Assembly: GCF_021401125.1 (NCBI RefSeq)
Contig: NZ_JACBFQ010000004.1
Coordinates: 62,001-126,000 of the forward strand
DNA length: 64,000 nt
From: Xanthobacter sp. NM-59
GTDB taxonomy: Bacteria; Pseudomonadota; Alphaproteobacteria; Rhizobiales; Xanthobacteraceae
Reading direction: 5' to 3'
Of the stretch, positions 14,810-57,812 are shown piece by piece; position 1 is the stretch's first letter, and each line of letters begins with the position of its first letter. The position numbers and the translations under genes were made by a program. The notes under the pieces were generated by a model. That model was not told the DNA's origin and searched no databases. It saw only the letters and a program-made list of their open reading frames with translations.

Positions 14810-14832
14810 GCCGCCGGCCGCGTGCCGGCGGC
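14810..14832 (+). terminator. hairpin between the TAXI receptor and permease genes
   Basis: A perfect 9-bp stem pairs GCCGCCGGC (14810-14818) with GCCGGCGGC (14824-14832) around a CGCGT loop, 8 nt after the receptor stop. A second, weaker hairpin (GCGCGGG/CCCGCGC) follows near 14850. There is no T-tract. Such hairpins often stabilise the receptor mRNA so that more binding protein than permease is made. Confidence 0.5.
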
Positions 14833-14926
14833 GAACGGGTTCGCGCAAGGCCCGCGCGGGAATGAGCCCGCGCGCCGGCCGATGGCCCGCGTCCACCGGC
14901 ACGGGCTCGCCCAGAAGGAGTCTGCC

Positions 14927-16906
14927 ATGTCTTCGGCAAAGTCCCCCGCGCCGCGCTCCTGCGGGGAGCCGGCCGCCGCCACCGTCGAGGCGCTGCCTCT
15001 GCCGCCGCCGCGCGTGCGCGGGCCCGCCCTTGCTGCCCTGCTGGCGCTCGGCGGCGCCGGCCTCGCCATCATCCTGGCGCAGAGCTTCAATGTGGAGATT
15101 GGCGGCGTGCTGCCGCTGCTGGCCAATCGCTATTACTATGTGCTGATCGGCCTGTTCCTGGCGGCCGCCTTCCTGCTGCAGCCGGCCAGCCCCCGCCACC
15201 GGCAGGTGACGGTGTTCGACTGGACCTGCGCCGCGCTCGCGCTCGCCTCCTGCGGCTATCTGGCGGTGGAGGCGGAAACCATCATCACCAGCGGCTGGGA
15301 AGTGGTGGCGCCGTTCTCGGCTGTGGCCGTGTGCGCGGTGGTGGTGGCGCTGGCGCTGGAAGCGGTGCGCCGCACGGGCGGCCTGGCTCTGCTCGCCATC
15401 TGCGTGGTGTTCGCGTCCTATCCCCTGTTCGCGGGCTACATGCCGGGCTTCCTGTGGGGCACCGAGCTCACCTTGTCCGAAACCCTGGCGGCCCATGTGA
15501 TGGGCGCGGAAAGCGTCATCGGCATGCCGGTGCGGGTGGTGGCGGACACGCTGGTGGGCTTCATCATCTTCGGCTCGGTGCTGAGCGTGATGGGGGGAGG
15601 GCAGTTCTTCATGGACCTGTCCATGGCCCTCATGGGCCGCAGCCGTGGCGGGCCGGCCAAGGTGGCGGTGCTCTCCAGCGCCCTGTTCGGCTCGCTCTCG
15701 GGCAGCGTGGTCTCGAACGTGCTCACCACCGGGCGCCTCACCATTCCCGCCATGCAGCGGGCGGGCTATCCGGCCACCTATGCCGGCGCCATCGAAGCCT
15801 GCGCCTCCACCGGCGGAACGCTGATGCCGCCGGTGATGGGCGCGGTGGCCTTCATCATGGCCTCGTTCCTCGACACCTCCTACACCACCATCATCATCGC
15901 GGCGGTGGTGCCCTCGATGCTCTATTACCTCGCGCTGTTCATCCAGGCCGATGCCTTTGCGGCGCGCACCGGCATTCGTGGGGTGGGGCGCGACCAGCTG
16001 CCGAACCTTCTCGCCACCGTCCGGGGCGGGTGGCATCATTTGGTTTCGCTCGTGTCGCTGGTGGTGCTGCTGTTCATCGCCAGCCCGGGCCATGCGGCCT
16101 ATTACGCCACCGCCATCATGCTGGTGCTGGGCGTGGTGGCGACGCGGCGGGTGCTGCCGCTCGCGACCGTGCGCGCGCTGCTGCTCGATGTGACGAGCAA
16201 CATCGCCTATCTGGTGGCCACCTTGTGCGGCATCGGCCTCATCGTGGGCTCGCTGGCCATGACCGGCGTGGGCAGCGCCTTCTCCCGTGAGCTGATCCTC
16301 TATGGCGGCAACAATGTGCTGCTGCTCTTGATCCTGGGCGCCCTCACCTCGTTCGTGCTGGGCATGGGGATGACGGTTTCCGCCTGCTACATCTTCCTGG
16401 CGACGGTGCTGGCACCGGCGCTGGTGGGGCTGGGGCTGAACCCGCTGGGGGCGCACCTGTTCGTGCTCTATTGGGGCATGCTCTCCTACATCACCCCGCC
16501 GGTGGCGCTGGCCGCCATCGCCGCCGCGCAGATCGCCGGGGGCAAGGGGTTGGAGACGGGCTTCGCCGCCATGCGGCTGGGGCTGGTGCTGTTCATCCTG
16601 CCCTTCATGTTCGTCTACAATCCCGGCCTGCTGCTGCAGGGCGATGTGGTGAACATCGTGGTCTCCGTCACCACCGCCATTATCGCCACGGTGCTGCTCG
16701 CCTGCGCGGTGGAAGGCTATCTCTATCGGGTGGGGCCCATCGGCCGAATGGAGCGGGTGGCGCTGCTGGCCGGCGCTCTGCTGGTGATGGTGCCGAACCG
16801 CGACAGCGAGCTTCTGGGCGCGGGCCTGCTGGCGGTGCTCATGGGCGCCATGGTTGTGCGCCGCCGCTGGGCCCGTGTGCCCGCCGAGGTGCCGCAGGAC
16901 GTGTAG
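14927..16906 (+). CDS. TRAP transporter fused permease (4TM/12TM)
   Basis: This 659-residue inner-membrane protein combines the small (DctQ-like) and large (DctM-like) TRAP subunits in one chain, as is normal in TAXI systems. Many hydrophobic segments are visible; the DctM-like part includes GSLSGSVVSNVLTTGRLTIP and ASTGGTLMPPVMGAVAF, both family hallmarks, and the C-terminal half has YWGMLSYITPPVALAA. The start at 14927 follows AAGGAG; the open frame extends upstream through non-family sequence. With the preceding receptor it forms a Na+- or H+-driven uptake system. Confidence 0.9.
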   Translation: MSSAKSPAPRSCGEPAAATVEALPLPPPRVRGPALAALLALGGAGLAIILAQSFNVEIGGVLPLLANRYYYVLIGLFLAAAFLLQPASPRHRQVTVFDWTCAALALASCGYLAVEAETIITSGWEVVAPFSAVAVCAVVVALALEAVRRTGGLALLAICVVFASYPLFAGYMPGFLWGTELTLSETLAAHVMGAESVIGMPVRVVADTLVGFIIFGSVLSVMGGGQFFMDLSMALMGRSRGGPAKVAVLSSALFGSLSGSVVSNVLTTGRLTIPAMQRAGYPATYAGAIEACASTGGTLMPPVMGAVAFIMASFLDTSYTTIIIAAVVPSMLYYLALFIQADAFAARTGIRGVGRDQLPNLLATVRGGWHHLVSLVSLVVLLFIASPGHAAYYATAIMLVLGVVATRRVLPLATVRALLLDVTSNIAYLVATLCGIGLIVGSLAMTGVGSAFSRELILYGGNNVLLLLILGALTSFVLGMGMTVSACYIFLATVLAPALVGLGLNPLGAHLFVLYWGMLSYITPPVALAAIAAAQIAGGKGLETGFAAMRLGLVLFILPFMFVYNPGLLLQGDVVNIVVSVTTAIIATVLLACAVEGYLYRVGPIGRMERVALLAGALLVMVPNRDSELLGAGLLAVLMGAMVVRRRWARVPAEVPQDV

Positions 16907-18103: not shown

Positions 18104-19285
18104 TCAGGGCTTCGGCACATAGGCCTCGTAAAGGTGCTGCTGCACCTCGGCGGCGGCGGTTTCCGCATAGGGGCCGGGGAAGTTGGTCACCACCACCACG
18201 GCGCGATCGGCCTTCGGGTCCACCAGGATCTTGGCGAGGTTCATGGAGTTGGAGCCGTTATGGGCGAGGAGGGGGGTCTTCGCCCAGTCGAACTTCACGA
18301 TGCCCCAGCCGAAGCCATATTCCCCCTGCGCCGGCGTGCCGGGCGCGGGATGGGGCCTCGGGGGCGTGCGCACGTGGGGGCGCTGAATCTCAGCCAGGGT
18401 CTCCGGCTTGACGATGGGCGGCCCGCGCCGGGCGCCGCCGGCGTTCCAATCCGCCCAGCGCGCGAAATCGAGCACCGACATGTGGGCGCTGCCGGCCGGT
18501 CCCATCACCGGCGGCACATCAGCCGCCGGGCCCCACGGCATGGGCTTGGCGCGGCCCTCATCGCCCAGCGAATGGCCGATGGCCGCATCATAGCGCCCAG
18601 TGGTGGCCTGGGGGCCGAAGCCGGCGGTGGTGAGGCCGAGGGGCTTGTAGATGCGCTCCTCCACCAGCCGTTCCCACGGCTGGCCCGACACCTGCTCCAG
18701 CATGGCGCCGGCAATGAGATAGCCGAAATTGGCGTATTGGAAGGGCGAGCCCTTGGGCACCTTGGGCGCGTGGTGCTTCCAGCGGTTGACGGCATCGATG
18801 CGCTGGTCGCGCGGATTCTTCTCGAAAGCGGCGGGGCTCATATAGATGTCGAGCATGTCCGGCGTGTCGGTGGGAATGCCGCTGGAATGGCTCAACAGCT
18901 GCTCGAGGGTGACGGCGGCGAGCTTCGGATTCATGTCCGGAACCGCCTTGCCCAGCACCTCGCCCACCGTGCTCTTCCAGCTGAGCCGCCCCTCATCCAC
19001 CAGGGTGCCGGCGACGGTGGCCGTCAGGGCCTTGGTGTCGGAGCCGAGGTGGAAGCGGTCATTGATGGTGACGGGAACATCCAGGCCGATGGCCCTTTTG
19101 CCCACCGAGCCCGCCGCCACGATCTCGCCCTTGGAGGTGACCGCCGCCGCCAGCGCCGGGAGCTGATATTTCGCCCGCACCCCTTCCAGATAGGTGTCGA
19201 GATTGTCCATGGCCCGCGCCGCCGGCGCCAGCGCCAGCGCGGTGATCACCCCGAGCATGAGAGCGCGGAAGCGCGAGCGGCCCAT
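18104..19285 (-). CDS. exported serine hydrolase of the beta-lactamase fold
   Basis: This 393-residue protein belongs to the class C beta-lactamase/esterase/DD-peptidase superfamily. An N-terminal signal peptide (ALMLGVITALALAPAARA) directs it out of the cytoplasm. The catalytic SxxK is in HLGSDTKALTATV and the YxN motif in YANFGYLIAG; a C-terminal LLAHNGSNSMN fits the HxG (KTG-equivalent) region. The ATG at 19285 follows GGAGAA; six more upstream codons are possible but lack a better site. It is the last gene of a five-gene operon, 24 nt after the GMC gene. True beta-lactamase activity is less likely than esterase, amidase or transferase activity. Confidence 0.82.
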   Translation of the reverse strand: MGRSRFRALMLGVITALALAPAARAMDNLDTYLEGVRAKYQLPALAAAVTSKGEIVAAGSVGKRAIGLDVPVTINDRFHLGSDTKALTATVAGTLVDEGRLSWKSTVGEVLGKAVPDMNPKLAAVTLEQLLSHSSGIPTDTPDMLDIYMSPAAFEKNPRDQRIDAVNRWKHHAPKVPKGSPFQYANFGYLIAGAMLEQVSGQPWERLVEERIYKPLGLTTAGFGPQATTGRYDAAIGHSLGDEGRAKPMPWGPAADVPPVMGPAGSAHMSVLDFARWADWNAGGARRGPPIVKPETLAEIQRPHVRTPPRPHPAPGTPAQGEYGFGWGIVKFDWAKTPLLAHNGSNSMNLAKILVDPKADRAVVVVTNFPGPYAETAAAEVQQHLYEAYVPKP

Positions 19286-19309
19286 TGTGCTTCTCCCTGC
19301 CACGCCGGA

Positions 19310-20938
19310 TCAGGCCGCCGCCGTGGCGACCTTGGCCTTCTCCACCAGATGGCCCGCCAACCGATGCGCCAGCGCCATGATGGTGAGTGTCAGGTGCTTG
19401 TCAGGCAACACCGGCACCACGCCGCCGTCGCAGACATAGAGATTGTCGAGGTCGTGGCACTTCAGGTTCGCGTCCACCACGCCCCGCGCCGGATCCCCCG
19501 AAATGGCGGTGGTGCCGGCATAGTGGATGCCCGTTCCCGTATTGTCGGTGCCGGTGCTGATGAGGGTGGATGAGGTGTGCCGCAGCACGCGCCGGCCCCA
19601 TTTCAGCATGGCTTCCATCATGGCCTCGGTTTCGGCCGATACGGAAAAGTCCACGGTCACATGCGGCACGCCGAAGGCGTCCGTGGTGGTTCCGGGGCGC
19701 ACGCGGTTGCGGGGGGTGGGGTCGCCGGCGCAGAACAGGCCCAGCGTCACGTAGCTGTGGAACATCATCCGCGCCAGCCACTCTTTCATGAAGGGCGGGA
19801 AGCGCTGCATCTCGGAGAGATAATAGGGCACGTCCGGCAGGCCGTGGATGGCGTGGCCGATGAAGGGAAATTCGACGCCATCCCGCGTCTTGCCCCGCGA
19901 CAGCAGAATGAGATGGTCGCCATAGCCCACGTCATAGTCGCGATGCTTGCCCCACAGGCGCCAGAGCGAGGTGGAAAGCACCGCCTTCGGATTGTCCTGA
20001 AGGCGCAGGCCCAGCTGGCCATGGGGGTTGCCCAGGCCCTGGGGCGCGGCCTCGTCGGCGGAGTTGAAGAGGATGCGCGGCGTCTCCACGGCGCCGGTGG
20101 CCAGCACCACCACGTCGGCCGTGAGCACGCGCCGCTCGCCGCTCGCCATGTCGCGATATTCCACCCCGCTCACGCGGGCGGTGCCGGGTTCGCGCAGCAC
20201 CCGCACCACCTTGGCACCGGTGCGCAGCTCGTAATTGTCGCGCCCCTGGATCTCCGGCAGCAGGCGCGCGGTGAACTTGTAGACCGACCCCACCGGGCAG
20301 CCGGACGTGCAGATGCCCGTTGAGACGCAGGAATGCGGCCCACCCGCGCGCGTGTCGATGGCCTTGCGGTTGGGAATGGCGTGGGAGTGCGGCTCGCCCA
20401 GGGACTTGACCGCCGCCACGATCATCTCATCCGCCGGCCGCAGGGGCTTGGGCGGCACGAACACGCCATCGGGCAGCTCGGGAATGGCTTCCTTGGTGCC
20501 GCACACCACGATGCGGCTCTCCACCGCGTCATAATGGGGCGCGAGGGCGGAATAGCCGAACGGCCAGGTGGAAAAGTCCTTTTCCGCGAACCGGACGCTG
20601 ACGCCATTCCACAGATTCTGCAGGCCGTTGACGGCCAGGATCTGATAGTGGCGGAAGCTGCCCTCGGGCCATCCGGTGGAGCCCTCCGGCCCCTTGGCGT
20701 ACAAAGGGTGGATGAACAGGTTTTCGAGCGGGTCGACAGGCCAGGTGGACTTGGGGCGCACGCCGAAATCCAGCCGCGCGCCGGGCGGGTCCACCTTCTC
20801 GAAATGGTCGTCGGCAAGGCGCCCGCCCTGCTCCAGCGATACCACTTTCAGGCCCGCCTTCGCGAGCTCATAGGCCAGGATGCCTCCGCCGGCGCCCGTG
20901 CCGACAACGCACACATCGCAATGGGCAGCCTCAGCCAC
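19310..20938 (-). CDS. GMC-family FAD oxidoreductase
   Basis: This 542-residue flavoprotein of the glucose-methanol-choline family has the FAD motif VVGTGAGGGILAYELAKAG at its start. The cysteine-rich block CVSTGICTSGCPVGSV is seen in gluconate/glucoside dehydrogenase and pyranose-oxidase-like branches. The catalytic pair is probably the His of GTGIHYAGT and the His of LPDKHLTLT, and the C-terminal NLYVCDGGVVP is the FAD block. No signal peptide is visible. It begins with GTG after TAGGAGGC and overlaps the preceding 100-residue gene by 8 nt, which suggests a two-subunit enzyme. A sugar or cyclitol substrate is inferred from the adjacent sugar porters and aminotransferase. Confidence 0.85.
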   Translation of the reverse strand: MAEAAHCDVCVVGTGAGGGILAYELAKAGLKVVSLEQGGRLADDHFEKVDPPGARLDFGVRPKSTWPVDPLENLFIHPLYAKGPEGSTGWPEGSFRHYQILAVNGLQNLWNGVSVRFAEKDFSTWPFGYSALAPHYDAVESRIVVCGTKEAIPELPDGVFVPPKPLRPADEMIVAAVKSLGEPHSHAIPNRKAIDTRAGGPHSCVSTGICTSGCPVGSVYKFTARLLPEIQGRDNYELRTGAKVVRVLREPGTARVSGVEYRDMASGERRVLTADVVVLATGAVETPRILFNSADEAAPQGLGNPHGQLGLRLQDNPKAVLSTSLWRLWGKHRDYDVGYGDHLILLSRGKTRDGVEFPFIGHAIHGLPDVPYYLSEMQRFPPFMKEWLARMMFHSYVTLGLFCAGDPTPRNRVRPGTTTDAFGVPHVTVDFSVSAETEAMMEAMLKWGRRVLRHTSSTLISTGTDNTGTGIHYAGTTAISGDPARGVVDANLKCHDLDNLYVCDGGVVPVLPDKHLTLTIMALAHRLAGHLVEKAKVATAAA

Positions 20939-21233
20939 GGGCGCCTCCTATGGGCCACTCGCCCACGCTGGCCAGGAAGGCGGGCGAGGCAAAGCGCATG
21001 TATTCCAGGAAATCGGCGAACAGCGGCGCGTCGGCGCCGAGGTCGGCCCGCGTGAGCTTGGCGCCGCCGGCGGGCACGCGGGTGCTCAGCCCCTCCAGCG
21101 CGGCGTGAAGCTGGTGGTTGGCAAGTGCGATCCGGGTCAGGTCGCCGAGCAGCGGGCGCAGGGGGCGCCTATAGGGGCTCAGCTCCACCAGGGCGGCCAT
21201 GAGGCGCCGGGCATCGTCGGGGGTGATCGACAT
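20931..21233 (-). CDS. small putative GMC-oxidoreductase partner protein
   Basis: This 100-residue soluble protein has no motif that I recognise with certainty. It is helix-rich, contains DARRLMAALVELSP and ADAPLFADFLEYMRFASPAFLASVGEWP, and lacks a signal peptide or cysteines. It overlaps the GMC gene by 8 nt and follows the sugar porter stop by 11 nt, so it is probably a small subunit or maturation partner of the GMC enzyme, analogous in position to the small subunits of gluconate or glucoside dehydrogenases. The start at 21233 (MSITPDD) is chosen over one five codons upstream because GAGGAG lies at proper spacing. Confidence 0.65.
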   Translation of the reverse strand: MSITPDDARRLMAALVELSPYRRPLRPLLGDLTRIALANHQLHAALEGLSTRVPAGGAKLTRADLGADAPLFADFLEYMRFASPAFLASVGEWPIGGARG

Positions 21234-21244
21234 GGCCTGTCTCC

Positions 21245-22618
21245 TCACAGGGCGCGGGATGCCAGCGGGGCGGTGCCCAGCTCACGGAACGGGCGCCCGC
21301 TCTTCAGGTGGCGCTCGATATCCTCCAGGCTGACGCCGCTGGTCTCCGGCACCGCACGCAGGGTGAAGGCGAGCCCGGCGATGCACACCAGGGCATAGAT
21401 GGCGAACACCCCGGCCAGGCCCAGCTCCGCCACCAGCACGGGGAAGGAGAACACCACCAGGAAGTTGAAGCCCCAGTTCACCAGCGAAGCCAGGCTCATG
21501 CCCAGCGAGCGCACGTTGAGCGGAAACACTTCCGCCATCATCACCCAGGGCAGCGGCCCGATGCTGATGGCGAAGGCGGAGATGTAGAGAAGCAGCCCGC
21601 CGAGGGCGACCACACCCAGGGAGGGGCTGCCGGTGGCGGAACTGATGGCGATGGCGCCGAGCGCGACGGCCGTGCCCGCGAAGCCCAGCAGCAGAAGCAG
21701 CCGGCGGCCCAGGCGATCAATCAGCAGCATGCCGACGATGGTCATGAGCACATTGACCGCGCCCACGCCCGCGGTGGCCAGGATCTGGGTGGAGGTGGAA
21801 TCGAAGCCGGAAATCTGGAACACCGTGGGGGCGTAATAGATCACCGCATTGATGCCCGAGAGCTGCTGCAGCAGGAACAGGCCCATGCTCACATAAAGGG
21901 CCGGGCGCAGTTGCGGGGTGAAAAGGTCGGACAACCGGCCGGGCTTGAGATCCGCCACGGAGGCGGAGCGGATCTCGCTCAGCTCCTTTTCTACGTCCGG
22001 ATGCGTTTCCGGCACGTTGCGCAGGTGGGCGAGGGCGCGGCGCGCCTCGGTCTGGCGGCCGCGCGCCATCAGCCAGCGCGGCGTATCGGTCTGGGAGAAG
22101 ATGCCGAAGAACAGCACCAGCGCGGGCAGGGCGCCCATGGCGAACATCCAGCGCCAGGAATCCGAGAGCAGGTAGCCCACCACATAGGCGCCCAGAATGC
22201 CCAGGGTGACCGCGAGCTGGTAAATGGACACCAGCATGCCACGCTGCGCCGTGGGCGCGCTTTCGGAGATGTAGAGCGGCGCCATCATGGCCGCCATGCC
22301 CACCGCCACGCCGATGACGAGCCGGGCCGCCGTGAGCGACCACAAATCCCAGGCGAGCGCGCTGCCGAGCGCGCCGCAGATGAACAGGAGCGCCGCGCCC
22401 AGCAGCATGCGCCGCCGCCCGGAGGCGGGGGCGATGCGCCCGCCGATCAGCGCGCCGGCGAGGGCGCCGAAGGGCACCGCCGCCGTCATGACCCCTTCCG
22501 CCAGGGGATCAATGCCGAAGTCGGTCCTCAGCGGGCCGAGTGCACCGGCGATCACGCCTTCGTCGAAGCCGAACAGGGCACCCGCGAGGCCGGCAATGGC
22601 GGCGATGAAATAGATCAT
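21245..22618 (-). CDS. sugar porter (MFS, SP family)
   Basis: This 457-residue protein is a 12-segment major facilitator of the sugar porter family, likely a sugar:H+ symporter in the inner membrane. It begins directly with the first membrane segment (AGLAGALFGFDEGVIAGAL). Family marks include the loop 2-3 GGRIAPASGRRR, the loop 6 sequence DTPRWLMARGR, QQLSGINAVIYYAP in helix 7 and VPETSGVSLEDIERHL at the end. QQLSGINAV is the sugar-contacting helix. It lies 48 nt after the aminotransferase gene and 11 nt before the small partner gene, inside the operon. Confidence 0.88.
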   Translation of the reverse strand: MIYFIAAIAGLAGALFGFDEGVIAGALGPLRTDFGIDPLAEGVMTAAVPFGALAGALIGGRIAPASGRRRMLLGAALLFICGALGSALAWDLWSLTAARLVIGVAVGMAAMMAPLYISESAPTAQRGMLVSIYQLAVTLGILGAYVVGYLLSDSWRWMFAMGALPALVLFFGIFSQTDTPRWLMARGRQTEARRALAHLRNVPETHPDVEKELSEIRSASVADLKPGRLSDLFTPQLRPALYVSMGLFLLQQLSGINAVIYYAPTVFQISGFDSTSTQILATAGVGAVNVLMTIVGMLLIDRLGRRLLLLLGFAGTAVALGAIAISSATGSPSLGVVALGGLLLYISAFAISIGPLPWVMMAEVFPLNVRSLGMSLASLVNWGFNFLVVFSFPVLVAELGLAGVFAIYALVCIAGLAFTLRAVPETSGVSLEDIERHLKSGRPFRELGTAPLASRAL

Positions 22619-22666
22619 GAACGCTTCTCCAAGCGCGCGGACGGCTCCCGGGGCCGGGATGCCGCC

Positions 22667-23989
22667 TCAGCCGAGGACGACCCGCGCCACTTTGCGCACG
22701 GCGAGGATGATGTCCTCCACATCCGCGTCGGTCAGGGTCGAGGCGATGGCGATGAGGGCGCTGCGGGCATGCAGCGCATCGCAATGGGGCAGGGCGCCGG
22801 CGCTGTAATCATAATCGGCGCCGAAGGCGTTGGCCGGATGGGTCCAGGGGAAGCCGTCGCGGCTGTTGGAGCGCTTGTGCACCAGGCTCGGGATGTTCGA
22901 GTACCAATGCATGCCCCATTCACGCATGGTCACGCAGGCCAAGCTCCCGGGCGGCCCGGAAATGCCCTCCGCCCGCACGCATTCGATGAAGCGCTTCGCG
23001 GTGGCTTCGTCGGGCAGCATCATGATGAGGAAGGGGCCGCTGTCGCCCGCCGGGTCCGGAATGGTGCGGAAGGAGAGGCCGGGAATGTCCGAAAGGGCGT
23101 TGCGGATGCGCCATTTGGCATCGCGCATGGCCCCCGTGATCTTCGGCAGCTTGCGCAGCTGGGCGAGGGCCATGGCACCGGCCAGCTCCGACATGCGCGC
23201 GCCCACGCCCCACAGCTGGCAATCCTCGTCCGAGGTGTCGAGCCGGCCCTGGGCGTTGCGCGGGTAGCCGAGATCGTGCAGCGCCACGATGCGGCGGAAG
23301 AGCTCGTCGTCATTGCTCGTGATCAGGCCGCCGTCGCCGGAGGTCATGTTCTTGTTGAGCTGGAACGAGAAGATGGCGATGTCGCCGAACGTGCCCACCG
23401 GCTGGCCGTGGGAGCTGGCGCCGGCGGTCTGGGCGCAATCCTCGATGAGGCGCAGGCCCTTCTCGCGGCAGATGCGCGCCACCTCCTGCACGCGGCCGGG
23501 CGCGCCGCTCATGTGCACCATCAGCACCGCGCGGGTGTGGGGGCCGATCTTGCGGACGAGGTCCTCGGGGTCGAGGGTGAAGGTGTCGTCGATGTCCACC
23601 AGGCGCGGAATGGCACCGGCGCGCACCACCGCGCTCACGCACGACACCCACAGATAGCCGGGCACCAGCACCTCGTCGCCCGGGCCGAGGCCCAGCGCCG
23701 ACACCGCGATGGACAGGGCCGCCGTGCCGCAGGAGACGCCCAGCGCGTGGCGGTGGCCGAAGGTGGAGCACCATTCGCTTTCCAGCGTGTCCACCATGTG
23801 CTGCAGGTCCGGGCCATAAAAGCGGAACGGGCTGCGGGCGCGCACCACACGTTCCACCAGCTCCAGCTCCTCGGCGCCGATCCAATGGGCGCCCGGCAGC
23901 TCCCACGGCAGGGGCGCGGTGCGCACCGGCTCCCCTCCATCGATGGCCAGACGGTTGGCGTGTTCGCGAGCGACGGTCGTGGGGGACAT
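22667..23989 (-). CDS. DegT/DnrJ/EryC1/StrS-type sugar or cyclitol aminotransferase
   Basis: This 440-residue PLP-dependent aminotransferase belongs to the DegT/StrS family, which transfers an amino group from glutamate or glutamine to keto sugars or keto cyclitols. Visible marks are GVSCGTAALSIAVSALGLGPGDEV, RLIEDCAQTAGAS (Asp that contacts the PLP ring nitrogen) and FSFQLNKNMTSGDGG with the Schiff-base lysine. The length and the GGEPVR opening resemble cyclitol aminotransferases such as StsC/BtrS and NtdA-type enzymes. The start at 23989 follows AGGAGCAAGG. It opens a five-gene minus-strand operon. The keto substrate could be made by the downstream GMC enzyme. Confidence 0.85.
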   Translation of the reverse strand: MSPTTVAREHANRLAIDGGEPVRTAPLPWELPGAHWIGAEELELVERVVRARSPFRFYGPDLQHMVDTLESEWCSTFGHRHALGVSCGTAALSIAVSALGLGPGDEVLVPGYLWVSCVSAVVRAGAIPRLVDIDDTFTLDPEDLVRKIGPHTRAVLMVHMSGAPGRVQEVARICREKGLRLIEDCAQTAGASSHGQPVGTFGDIAIFSFQLNKNMTSGDGGLITSNDDELFRRIVALHDLGYPRNAQGRLDTSDEDCQLWGVGARMSELAGAMALAQLRKLPKITGAMRDAKWRIRNALSDIPGLSFRTIPDPAGDSGPFLIMMLPDEATAKRFIECVRAEGISGPPGSLACVTMREWGMHWYSNIPSLVHKRSNSRDGFPWTHPANAFGADYDYSAGALPHCDALHARSALIAIASTLTDADVEDIILAVRKVARVVLG

Positions 23990-24059
23990 GCCTTGCTCCT
24001 GCACCCAACGCTTGCGCCCGCACCCAGGATTTTTGGGCGAACGCCTTTCGCGCTGGTCA

Positions 24060-24073
24060 GCATATACCTATGC
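24060..24073. promoter_or_regulatory. dyad in the divergent aminotransferase/porter promoter
   Basis: GCATA-N4-TATGC forms a perfect 5-bp dyad in the 173-bp A+T-richer gap between the divergent aminotransferase and sugar porter genes. A related word (CATATCTTTGCTT) recurs near 24132. A repressor operator controlling both directions is plausible, but no regulator gene lies next to it. Confidence 0.35.
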
Positions 24074-24162
24074 TTCAGCTCGGCCCTGAGCCGCAAGCGA
24101 GAGCGCGGGAAAATCTTGCCCATTCGGACAACATATCTTTGCTTGACAGGCGAGGTTTGCTG

Positions 24163-25500
24163 GTGAAAGTCGTCGTTCTTACCTCCGCGCTGGTGCTGTG
24201 TTTCGGCGCACTGTTTGGCTTCAGCACCGCATCCATTGCCGGCGTCCTGGCTGATATCACGGCGGATTTCAGTCTTTCCACGCACGCGGTCGAGATGATC
24301 GTGACAGCGCTGCTGGTGGGCTGCTTCGTGGGGGCGGCAAGCGCGGCACCGGTGTCTTCGCGCATTGGGCGCAAGCCATCGCTGTTTCTCGCGGTGGTCT
24401 TTGCTTTAGTTGGCTATGGGCTGATCCTGCTGGTGGGGCAGGTGCCGTTCGGCCCGCAACTGCTGGCGGGCGCGCGCGTTCTGATTGGCCTTGGTGTCGG
24501 CCTTTCTTCCATGGTTGTGCCAATGTACGCGGCCGAGGTGACCGCCGCGCGCTACCGTGGGGCAGTTGTGTCCATGTACCAACTCGCGATCACGGTTGGA
24601 ATACTTGGCGGCTATTCTGTACCTCTCGCGCTGATGAATGTCGCGTCGTGGCCGGTGATGCTGGCGCTTGGGCTGGTGATCGTCGTGGCGTGCGGTCTCG
24701 TGGTCGGGACGCTGCCGGAAAGCCCGCGCTGGCTGCAGGGCCAGGGCCGCACGGGCGAGGCGCAGGCGGCTGCGCGCGTGTTCGGCATTGCCGATGAGAT
24801 GGGGGAGGCCGCGCCGGGCGCGGCGGCGCTGCCCTTGCGCGCGGTGCTTCGCCAGGGCAGCACCCTGGCGGTGCTCGGCCTGTGCAGCGCGTTGTTCGTG
24901 CTGCAGAACTTCTCGGGCATCGACGGCATTCTCTATTACGCGCCGCACATTTTCACGGAGCTCGGCTTCTCCGCCGGCCTCGCGTCCCTGGCGGCGACGT
25001 TCGGGCTTGGCCTTGTCAATGTGCTGGCGACGGTGGCGGCCATGGTGCTGGTGGACCGGCTCGGCCGGCGGCCGCTGCTGATCGGCGGCTCGGCTGTGAT
25101 GGTGTGCGCCTTGGCGGCGGTGGTGGCGGCCGCCACCTTCGATTGGCCGTTCGTGGCGCTGGGCGGCCTCAGCCTCTACATCGTTGCGTTCGCCTTGAGC
25201 CTGGGGCCGCTGCCTTATGTGCTGATGTCGGAGCTGTTCCCGGCGGCCATTCGCGAGCGCGGCATCGCCCTGGCCTCAGCCACCAGCTGGCTGTTCAACG
25301 GCATCGTCGCCGCCACTTTCCTCTCGGTGGTGGGGGTGATGGGCCTTGCGGCGACGATCGGCATCTTCCTGGCGGTGTGCGTGGTCTCGCTGCTGGTGGC
25401 GCTGACGGTGACGCCCGAGACGCGCGCGGTGCCCCTGGAGCGCATCGAGGATGACGTGCTGGCCGGCAAGCCCCTGCGCGCCATCGGGGGAGGAGGCTGA
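24163..25500 (+). CDS. second sugar porter (MFS, SP family)
   Basis: This 12-segment sugar porter, 445 residues from the chosen start, is a paralogue of the one at 21245-22618. It shows FGFSTASIAGVL in helix 1, RIGRKPSL in loop 2-3, LPESPRWLQGQGR in loop 6, QNFSGIDGILYYAPH in helix 7, LVDRLGRRPLL and VTPETRAVPLERIEDD at the end. The GTG at 24163 is preferred because AGGCGAGG lies 7 nt upstream and translation then begins at the first membrane segment; the frame is open from an ATG at 24070, which would add 31 polar residues. It is divergent from the aminotransferase operon and probably co-regulated with it. FSGIDG replaces the LSGIN of the paralogue, so specificity may differ. Confidence 0.85.
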   Translation: MKVVVLTSALVLCFGALFGFSTASIAGVLADITADFSLSTHAVEMIVTALLVGCFVGAASAAPVSSRIGRKPSLFLAVVFALVGYGLILLVGQVPFGPQLLAGARVLIGLGVGLSSMVVPMYAAEVTAARYRGAVVSMYQLAITVGILGGYSVPLALMNVASWPVMLALGLVIVVACGLVVGTLPESPRWLQGQGRTGEAQAAARVFGIADEMGEAAPGAAALPLRAVLRQGSTLAVLGLCSALFVLQNFSGIDGILYYAPHIFTELGFSAGLASLAATFGLGLVNVLATVAAMVLVDRLGRRPLLIGGSAVMVCALAAVVAAATFDWPFVALGGLSLYIVAFALSLGPLPYVLMSELFPAAIRERGIALASATSWLFNGIVAATFLSVVGVMGLAATIGIFLAVCVVSLLVALTVTPETRAVPLERIEDDVLAGKPLRAIGGGG

Positions 25501-57735: not shown

Positions 57736-57812
57736 CGGAGTGTAGCGCAGTCTGGTAGCGCACCACGTTCGGGACGTGGGGGTCGCAGGTTCAAATCCTG
57801 CCACTCCGACCA
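57736..57812 (+). tRNA. tRNA-Pro(CGG)
   Basis: A 77-nt cloverleaf is present with acceptor stem CGGAGTG/CACTCCG, discriminator A and genomically encoded CCA (57810-57812). The anticodon stem CCACGT/ACGTGG frames the loop TTCGGGA with anticodon CGG, which reads CCG proline codons. The T arm GCAGG TTCAAAT CCTGC is standard. Confidence 0.96.

Follow-up and report, generated by a model that had tools for sequence, protein, structure and literature searches.

We analysed a 64,000-bp stretch of the genome of Xanthobacter sp. NM-59 (contig NZ_JACBFQ010000004.1, positions 62,001 to 126,000), further referred to as the window, and found that five of its genes are a real, conserved set forming one unit. 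They encode two sugar porters (MFS1 and MFS2), a small helical protein, a GMC flavoprotein and an aminotransferase of the DegT/DnrJ/EryC1 family (further DegT). This unit very probably oxidises and then aminates a free sugar. It is also probable that the unit is a self-contained cassette, in which MFS1 would import the sugar, a docked GMC enzyme would oxidise it, DegT would aminate it and MFS2 would export the product. Among the sequence comparisons, the best evidence that oxidation would feed amination is the replacement of one GMC type by another on the DegT tree.

Gene set and its conservation

The cluster consists of six genes, whose coordinates and families, first assigned in a sequence-only reading of the same DNA, were confirmed, with Pfam matches for all but the small gene. 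DegT, MFS1, the small gene, the GMC gene and a serine hydrolase gene follow one another in this order on the minus strand; the sequence-only reading had started the operon with a porter, and in fact DegT comes first. MFS2 (24070..25500, plus strand) is divergent, and the interval between it and DegT (23990..24069) presumably contains divergent promoters. The GMC gene shares 8 bases (GTGGCTGA) with the small gene. The likely starts, selected by eye, are ATG 23989 for DegT, whose open reading frame (ORF) opens at GTG 24004, ATG 21233 rather than GTG 21248 for the small gene, and ATG 19285 for the hydrolase.

DegT was searched for in 61 genomes, and ten stretches around the orthologs were fetched. 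Nearly full-length orthologs with 77 to 81% identity are encoded in eight of the 13 other genomes of the genus and in one genome from another family of the order. A split copy was found in one further genome, from the same family as the window. MFS2, MFS1, the small gene and the GMC gene accompany DegT in an identical layout in all ten stretches, and hence the arrangement is not due to chance. According to the sequence-only reading, its proposal of one functional unit would fall if the genes did not co-occur elsewhere; they do, and the proposal was upheld on this point.

A scan of contigs with the DegT alignment yielded 79 loci (designated L with a number; the best 80 of 81 matches were kept). 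This set overlaps the strains of the 61-genome set, and the two are not summed. An uninterrupted GMC match spanning 85% or more of the query is present in 58 of the 79 loci, within 3 kb of DegT in 56 of them and farther away in L040 and L051. L062 contains only a GMC remnant (13% of the query), and no GMC match was found in 20 loci. The DegT tree was built for 78 loci and the window, L102 being left out as its DegT is split in two frames. The cassette loci are held by one clade of 59 rows (support 99/92). Nineteen of the 20 GMC-less loci fall outside this clade, the one inside being L074 from Zwartia panacis; L083 from Legionella lies outside and has a second-type GMC (see below).

Scoring in the genome searches was restricted to a few top initial candidates in each genome, so that their counts are lower bounds. 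Among 397 genomes of the order, DegT orthologs were found in 11, and porter matches at E-value 1e-60 in 15. The latter comprise ten orthologs of the second porter, MFS2 (at least 51% identity), and five proteins with 38–40% identity, all five from genomes without a DegT ortholog. Ten genomes have both DegT and the second porter, which never occurs alone; the eleventh DegT genome (G400), with no match to this porter, is 76% complete. The iron-sulphur (Fe-S) type of GMC described below was found in five of the 397 genomes, every one with DegT, and the small protein in the same five (5/357). In a class-wide sample only the window's own genome matched (1/289 at E-value 1e-70), and thus the distribution of the cassette is patchy. 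Fisher tests, which take no account of how the genomes are related, were not read as probabilities. Of 1013 plasmid records with a match, none reached 60% identity to DegT. Carriers of the cassette include strains of Xanthobacter, Bosea, Stappia, Castellaniella and Reyranella.

Replacement of the GMC oxidase on the DegT tree

The window GMC gene (19310..20938, minus strand) encodes both domains of its family, GMC_oxred_N (PF00732, 53.1 bits, cut-off 23) and GMC_oxred_C (PF05199, 76.5 bits, cut-off 24.6). The nearest solved relatives are flavin adenine dinucleotide (FAD) glucose and fructose dehydrogenases, the closest being the glucose dehydrogenase of Burkholderia cepacia (PDB ID 6a2u). His472 and His515 occupy the catalytic positions of GMC enzymes. 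In a profile alignment, Cys204, Cys210 and Cys214, which form a C-x5-C-x3-C motif (20297..20329, minus strand), match Cys212, Cys218 and Cys222 of the B. cepacia enzyme, which are reported to bind a [3Fe-4S] cluster (PMC6719666). The window protein is predicted to be of the Fe-S type and to have a [3Fe-4S] site. The B. cepacia enzyme is periplasmic, with a twin-arginine translocation (Tat) hitchhiker subunit and a multiheme cytochrome c subunit; its FAD is attached to His105, and the catalytic residues are a His/Asn pair (PMC6719666). The window GMC resembles it in the conserved cluster cysteines and in having a small helical companion, but differs in Leu109, found at the position of the covalent FAD-His, in a His/His pair and in the absence of a Tat signal as judged by eye. 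No cytochrome c gene was found with Pfam among the six genes of the cluster.

GMC proteins of the cassette loci split into two groups, the second being 22–33% identical to the window GMC. The window and all 30 first-group loci have the three-cysteine motif, which occurs in none of the 25 second-group loci; the GMC proteins of L063, L068 and L073 also match the second type and are outside the 25-locus count. Solved relatives of the second type include glucose dehydrogenase, pyranose oxidase and a 6'''-hydroxyparomomycin C oxidase. The last is among the solved relatives of both types, a likeness to the aminoglycoside pathways. In these, the pairs KanQ/KanB, GenQ/GenB1 and GenD2/GenS2, each a dehydrogenase with an aminotransferase acting after it, replace a hydroxyl by an amine on a sugar that is part of the molecule by then (PMC5461906); they differ from the cassette in their pseudo-oligosaccharide substrates and in their location in antibiotic clusters.

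When the GMC types were placed on the DegT tree, five changes of type were obtained, of which strong branch support requires at least three. Within a single branch, a second-type GMC occurs in L052 and a first-type one in each of its sisters, L053 and L071, with neighbours alike. Such exchange of oxidases beside related aminotransferases is expected if both types make the keto substrate of DegT.

DegT itself (22667..23989, minus strand) matches PF01041 with 239.6 bits (cut-off 19.8). Its lysine binding pyridoxal phosphate is K218 in ORF numbering, aligned with the lysine of KdnA, and a lysine is present at this position in all 79 aligned rows. The structure model was poor (predicted local distance difference test score, pLDDT, 48.4) and was not used. 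The best PDB match is KdnA (5k8b), the 8-amino-3,8-dideoxy-manno-octulosonate (8-amino-Kdo) transaminase, with 217.8 bits, followed by a match of 156.8 bits; KdnA is thus the closest solved relative by sequence. In the KdnA/KdnB system a hydroxyl of a free sugar acid is oxidised and the product is then aminated by the DegT-family transaminase; KdnB is an alcohol dehydrogenase, not a GMC protein, and to our knowledge no paired sugar porters belong to this system. Linkage, co-occurrence, GMC replacement and the KdnA match argue strongly, if indirectly, for the earlier proposal of one unit that would oxidise and then aminate a free sugar; the hydrolase, which that proposal had included, did not hold (see below).

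Paired porters and the small partner

MFS1 (21245..22618, minus strand) and MFS2 are both sugar porters. Their Sugar_tr scores in Pfam are 360.7 and 282.7 bits, and with TIGR00879 (cut-off 237.8) MFS1 scores 373.4 bits and MFS2, 277.3 bits. An alignment of 112 porters or porter halves, taken from the window and 57 loci, was examined at the positions of XylE, in XylE numbering. At the position of Asn294, 55 sequences have Asn and 57, Asp. The sequences were divided by this residue into N-type and D-type, so only the remaining positions are independent of the grouping. All 55 N-type sequences have an acid at the Asp27 position of the first transmembrane helix (TM1; 52 Asp, 3 Glu), Gln-Gln at 288–289, and at Trp392 a Trp (36), His (14), Tyr (4) or Phe (1). 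In 54 of the 57 D-type sequences, position 289 is Asn and position 392 is Tyr. Exactly one porter of each type was found in 54 of the 58 loci, and the other four yielded a single porter. In three of the paired loci one fused porter supplies both members of the pair, and the pocket columns of its C-half are poorly aligned. The L052 protein has about 900 residues and two Sugar_tr stretches (Pfam), and L053 and L071 resemble it as judged by tblastn and ORF length only; the N-halves of all three have Glu at the TM1 position and an Asn-type pocket. Five porters found in genomes that lack a DegT ortholog are without exception N-type and keep the TM1 Asp.

MFS1 is of the N-type: it retains Asp19 (XylE Asp27), Gln251-Gln252, Asn257 and Trp358, and its closest solved structure is the glucose transporter GlcP. 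MFS2 is of the D-type, with Ser52 in place of Asp27, Gln279-Asn280 and Asp285 in place of Gln288-Gln289 and Asn294, and Tyr383 in place of Trp392. Thus MFS1 has the residues of a proton-coupled hexose symporter (the TM1 acid and the pocket Gln-Gln/Asn), and MFS2 does not. In STP10, Gln295, Gln296, Asn301 and Trp410 are part of a network contacting the C1–C4 hydroxyls of glucose, and the proton pair is Asp42 with Arg142 (PMC6345825). The spacing of the four network residues is the same as in the pocket of the porters studied here. The protonation site of XylE is Asp27, and the equivalent residue of the uniporter GLUT1 is Asn29 (PMC5491310). Compared with porters of the GlcP, XylE and GLUT type, MFS1 keeps the proton-coupling acid and the glucose-contact residues, whereas the pocket of MFS2 contains Asn and Asp, and its TM1 acid is missing; some relatives fuse a porter to the partner subunit of the enzyme or to a second porter. 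From these residues, MFS1 is proposed to be a sugar importer and MFS2, an outlet for a positively charged sugar, that is, an amino-sugar exporter.

The small gene (20931..21233, minus strand) encodes a protein of 100 residues outside known families, with no match in Pfam (E-value 1) or NCBIfam (E-value 0.01). It is predicted to be all-helical (pLDDT 82.4, predicted TM-score 0.64), and a fold search with this model gave no convincing match. A profile of 11 small proteins found a counterpart in all 30 Fe-S-type loci, that of L044 being weak and broken; with a wider profile none was found in the remaining 49 loci (best E-value 0.78, L057). Hence the small partner accompanies the Fe-S type alone. 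Its identification with a known gamma subunit was tried and found no support: hhalign against 11 PF13618 proteins gave 0.3%, although the two may still share a fold. PDB matches of the small-partner profile include no gamma chain. A search with PF12318 gave zero matches in any genome, controls included, and is therefore uninformative. No N-terminal twin-arginine signal was seen by eye in the 11 aligned small proteins.

In L042, L043, L045, L048, L054 and L093 a single open frame of about 580 codons encodes MFS1 with the small partner as its C-terminal domain. These fusions, known among others from Castellaniella and Candidimonas, are six of the seven betaproteobacterial Fe-S-type loci, and the seventh, L044, appears broken at the junction. 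L029 is open across the same junction but has an internal ATG, and was excluded from the count. In sugar porters of 12 helices the C-terminus faces the cytoplasm, and a partner fused to it therefore sits at the inner mouth of the importer; via the partner, the GMC protein presumably would be there too. The fusions suggest that the dehydrogenase docks on the porter.

Proposed route, alternatives and neighbouring genes

The route that we infer, including its chemical steps, direction, docking, electron path and substrate, would be as follows. MFS1, a GlcP-like proton/hexose symporter, would import the sugar, and the small partner would dock the GMC protein at the cytoplasmic end of MFS1. The GMC protein would oxidise one secondary hydroxyl of the non-phosphorylated sugar, its electrons passing to the [3Fe-4S] cluster and further to an acceptor. 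DegT would turn the ketone into an amine using an amino donor, and MFS2, with its pocket Asp and the TM1 acid mostly lost from its type, would release the amino sugar. D-glucose as the substrate and 3-amino-3-deoxyglucose (kanosamine) as the product are favoured, though unproven. Only tentatively, as a possibility that we hold to be rather doubtful, can the whole be pictured as a porter-docked metabolon exchangeable across proteobacteria, where glucose would be oxidised at C3 on entry, aminated to kanosamine and released by the paralogous porter whose pocket Asp would read the amine.

A close parallel in chemistry is kanosamine synthesis in Bacillus by NtdCAB/KabCAB. There, the 3-keto sugar formed by a dehydrogenase, 3-oxo-glucose-6-phosphate, is aminated by a member of the DegT family, likewise without a nucleotide sugar, but the substrate is glucose-6-phosphate and the phosphatase NtdB is required (PMC8788734, PMC6522883). 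By comparison, the window cluster has a GMC oxidoreductase in place of NtdC, no phosphatase among its six genes, and matched porters; NtdA is a distant PDB match of the window DegT (89.6 bits). In B. subtilis, the sugar porter gene glcP is located beside the ntd genes. The gene set and its chemistry are not described in the literature matches listed, most subscription journals being outside the coverage of that search. The chemistry is of a known kind in a new variant, and the transporter arrangement is new to us. The best-known amino-sugar pathways use nucleotide sugars or sugar phosphates. If the proposed route is true, it would be a short route to an amino sugar using neither, and a four- or five-gene cassette with its own importer and exporter would be readily moved between organisms and usable in engineering. 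If the metabolon is true as well, it would be a third kanosamine route, independent of uridine diphosphate glucose and glucose-6-phosphate. The questions raised are whether the Asn-to-Asp change in a GLUT-type pocket discriminates an amino sugar from a sugar, whether sugar porters can serve as docking sites for enzyme subunits, and which product is made by the Xanthobacter, Bosea, Stappia, Castellaniella and Reyranella carriers.

Several observations weigh against the proposed route. Two of the 57 D-type porters keep the TM1 Asp, and the pocket Asp of MFS2 could serve a substrate other than an amine. In XylE, loss of the TM1 acid alone yields no uniporter (PMC5491310). All six fusions lie in one betaproteobacterial branch of the DegT tree and are probably one event. 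The Fe-S GMC of one genome (G451) has an internal stop codon. Since DegT stands in L074 with no GMC gene nearby and L062 has only the remnant, some strains may use DegT for something else; GMC is likewise missing from 19 loci with more distant DegT genes. Finally, among the neighbours discussed below, glucokinase and the gene resembling a non-ribosomal peptide synthetase (NRPS) are limited to the Reyranella-type branch, and the sucrose-phosphate synthase, to three loci.

Genes adjoining the cassette at other loci point to glucose. Of the Reyranella-type loci, 7 have a glucokinase gene and 5 a further MFS gene, and an OprB porin is also encoded there; these genes were identified by Pfam on L057 and grouped by similarity. 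An OprB-group gene follows the GMC gene in L033 from Camelimonas. In L052 and L053 a sucrose-phosphate synthase/phosphatase fusion (Pfam) stands beside DegT and the GMC gene, and L071 has the same layout as judged from gene size and position. This synthase would also suit the oxidation and amination of a disaccharide (sucrose or trehalose) to an amino disaccharide, as would the cellobiose and oligosaccharide dehydrogenases that are also among the solved relatives of the window GMC. We nevertheless consider a disaccharide unlikely: MFS1 is nearest to GlcP and XylE with intact pocket residues, and the synthase layout, absent from the window cluster, is seen in 3 of the 79 loci. The Reyranella branch has glucokinase instead.

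An aminocyclitol route, with the GMC protein making inosose from myo-inositol and DegT making inosamine, would agree with the presence of inosose DegT enzymes (7b0d, 2c7t, 5w71) among the PDB matches and with the fact that sugar porters include inositol carriers. These enzymes, however, score 133 to 122 bits against 217.8 for KdnA, and the neighbours named above point to glucose; inositol genes were not seen among the annotated cassette neighbours, which are a part of all neighbours. The aminocyclitol route is accordingly rated improbable.

Transaminases are reversible, and two importers would be ordinary in a scavenging operon, so a catabolic role can be considered, in which an imported amino sugar would be converted by DegT in reverse to a keto sugar. 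We find it quite improbable. The cassette loci share only DegT, the GMC protein and the porters, plus the small partner with one GMC type, and reduction of the ketone so formed would be unexpected for a GMC flavoenzyme. Furthermore, an NRPS-like protein of 1066 residues with adenylation, peptidyl carrier and condensation domains (A-PCP-C) is encoded beside the cassette in L057, L060, L080 and L099 (Pfam on L057), and its presence with a further MFS gene at these four loci suits synthesis. The HHxxxDG motif was not found in this protein, and an aminoacylated amino sugar as the product there is only a hint. That the neighbours are unrelated, the GMC protein having a non-sugar alcohol as its substrate and DegT a nucleotide sugar, is compatible with the breadth of both families but hardly credible given the linkage, co-occurrence, oxidase replacement and paired sugar porters.

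The last gene of the minus-strand run encodes a putatively exported class-C-type serine hydrolase (18104..19285; PF00144; signal peptide recognized by eye), which the sequence-only reading had counted into the unit. It was unmatched in nine of the ten fetched stretches, eight of the ten extending past the GMC gene and two ending there; the tenth contains two weak PF00144 matches, on the MFS2 side. As no match was present 3' of the GMC gene in any of the eight relatives readable there, the hydrolase was rejected as a core gene and is considered accessory. PF00144-like genes are nevertheless located in or beside the cassette in L051, L055, L056, L058 and L102, in strains that belong to different families. 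Our guess is that these hydrolases trim an exported conjugate.

In L034 from Bosea, a protein of 1053 residues that matches cytochrome P460 and doubled CXXCH is encoded two genes after the GMC gene (L034:15938-19099), and it is possible that this cytochrome-like protein is an electron acceptor. The 19 distant GMC-less DegT loci were set aside as a different use, their neighbours being unlike those of the cassette where inspected (creatininase, MTTB, ceramidase-like and ATP-binding cassette (ABC) transporter genes). Distantly related DegT genes from Chloroflexota (L087, L089 and L095) are near ABC sugar transporter and ceramidase-like genes (Pfam on L087) and possibly belong to another amino-sugar system. 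Elsewhere in the window, a large subunit (DctM) of a tripartite ATP-independent periplasmic (TRAP) transporter is encoded on the plus strand at 14822-16906, outside the cluster on its hydrolase side, and a single tRNA-Pro gene with anticodon CGG (57736-57812) is the only Rfam match at gathering thresholds.

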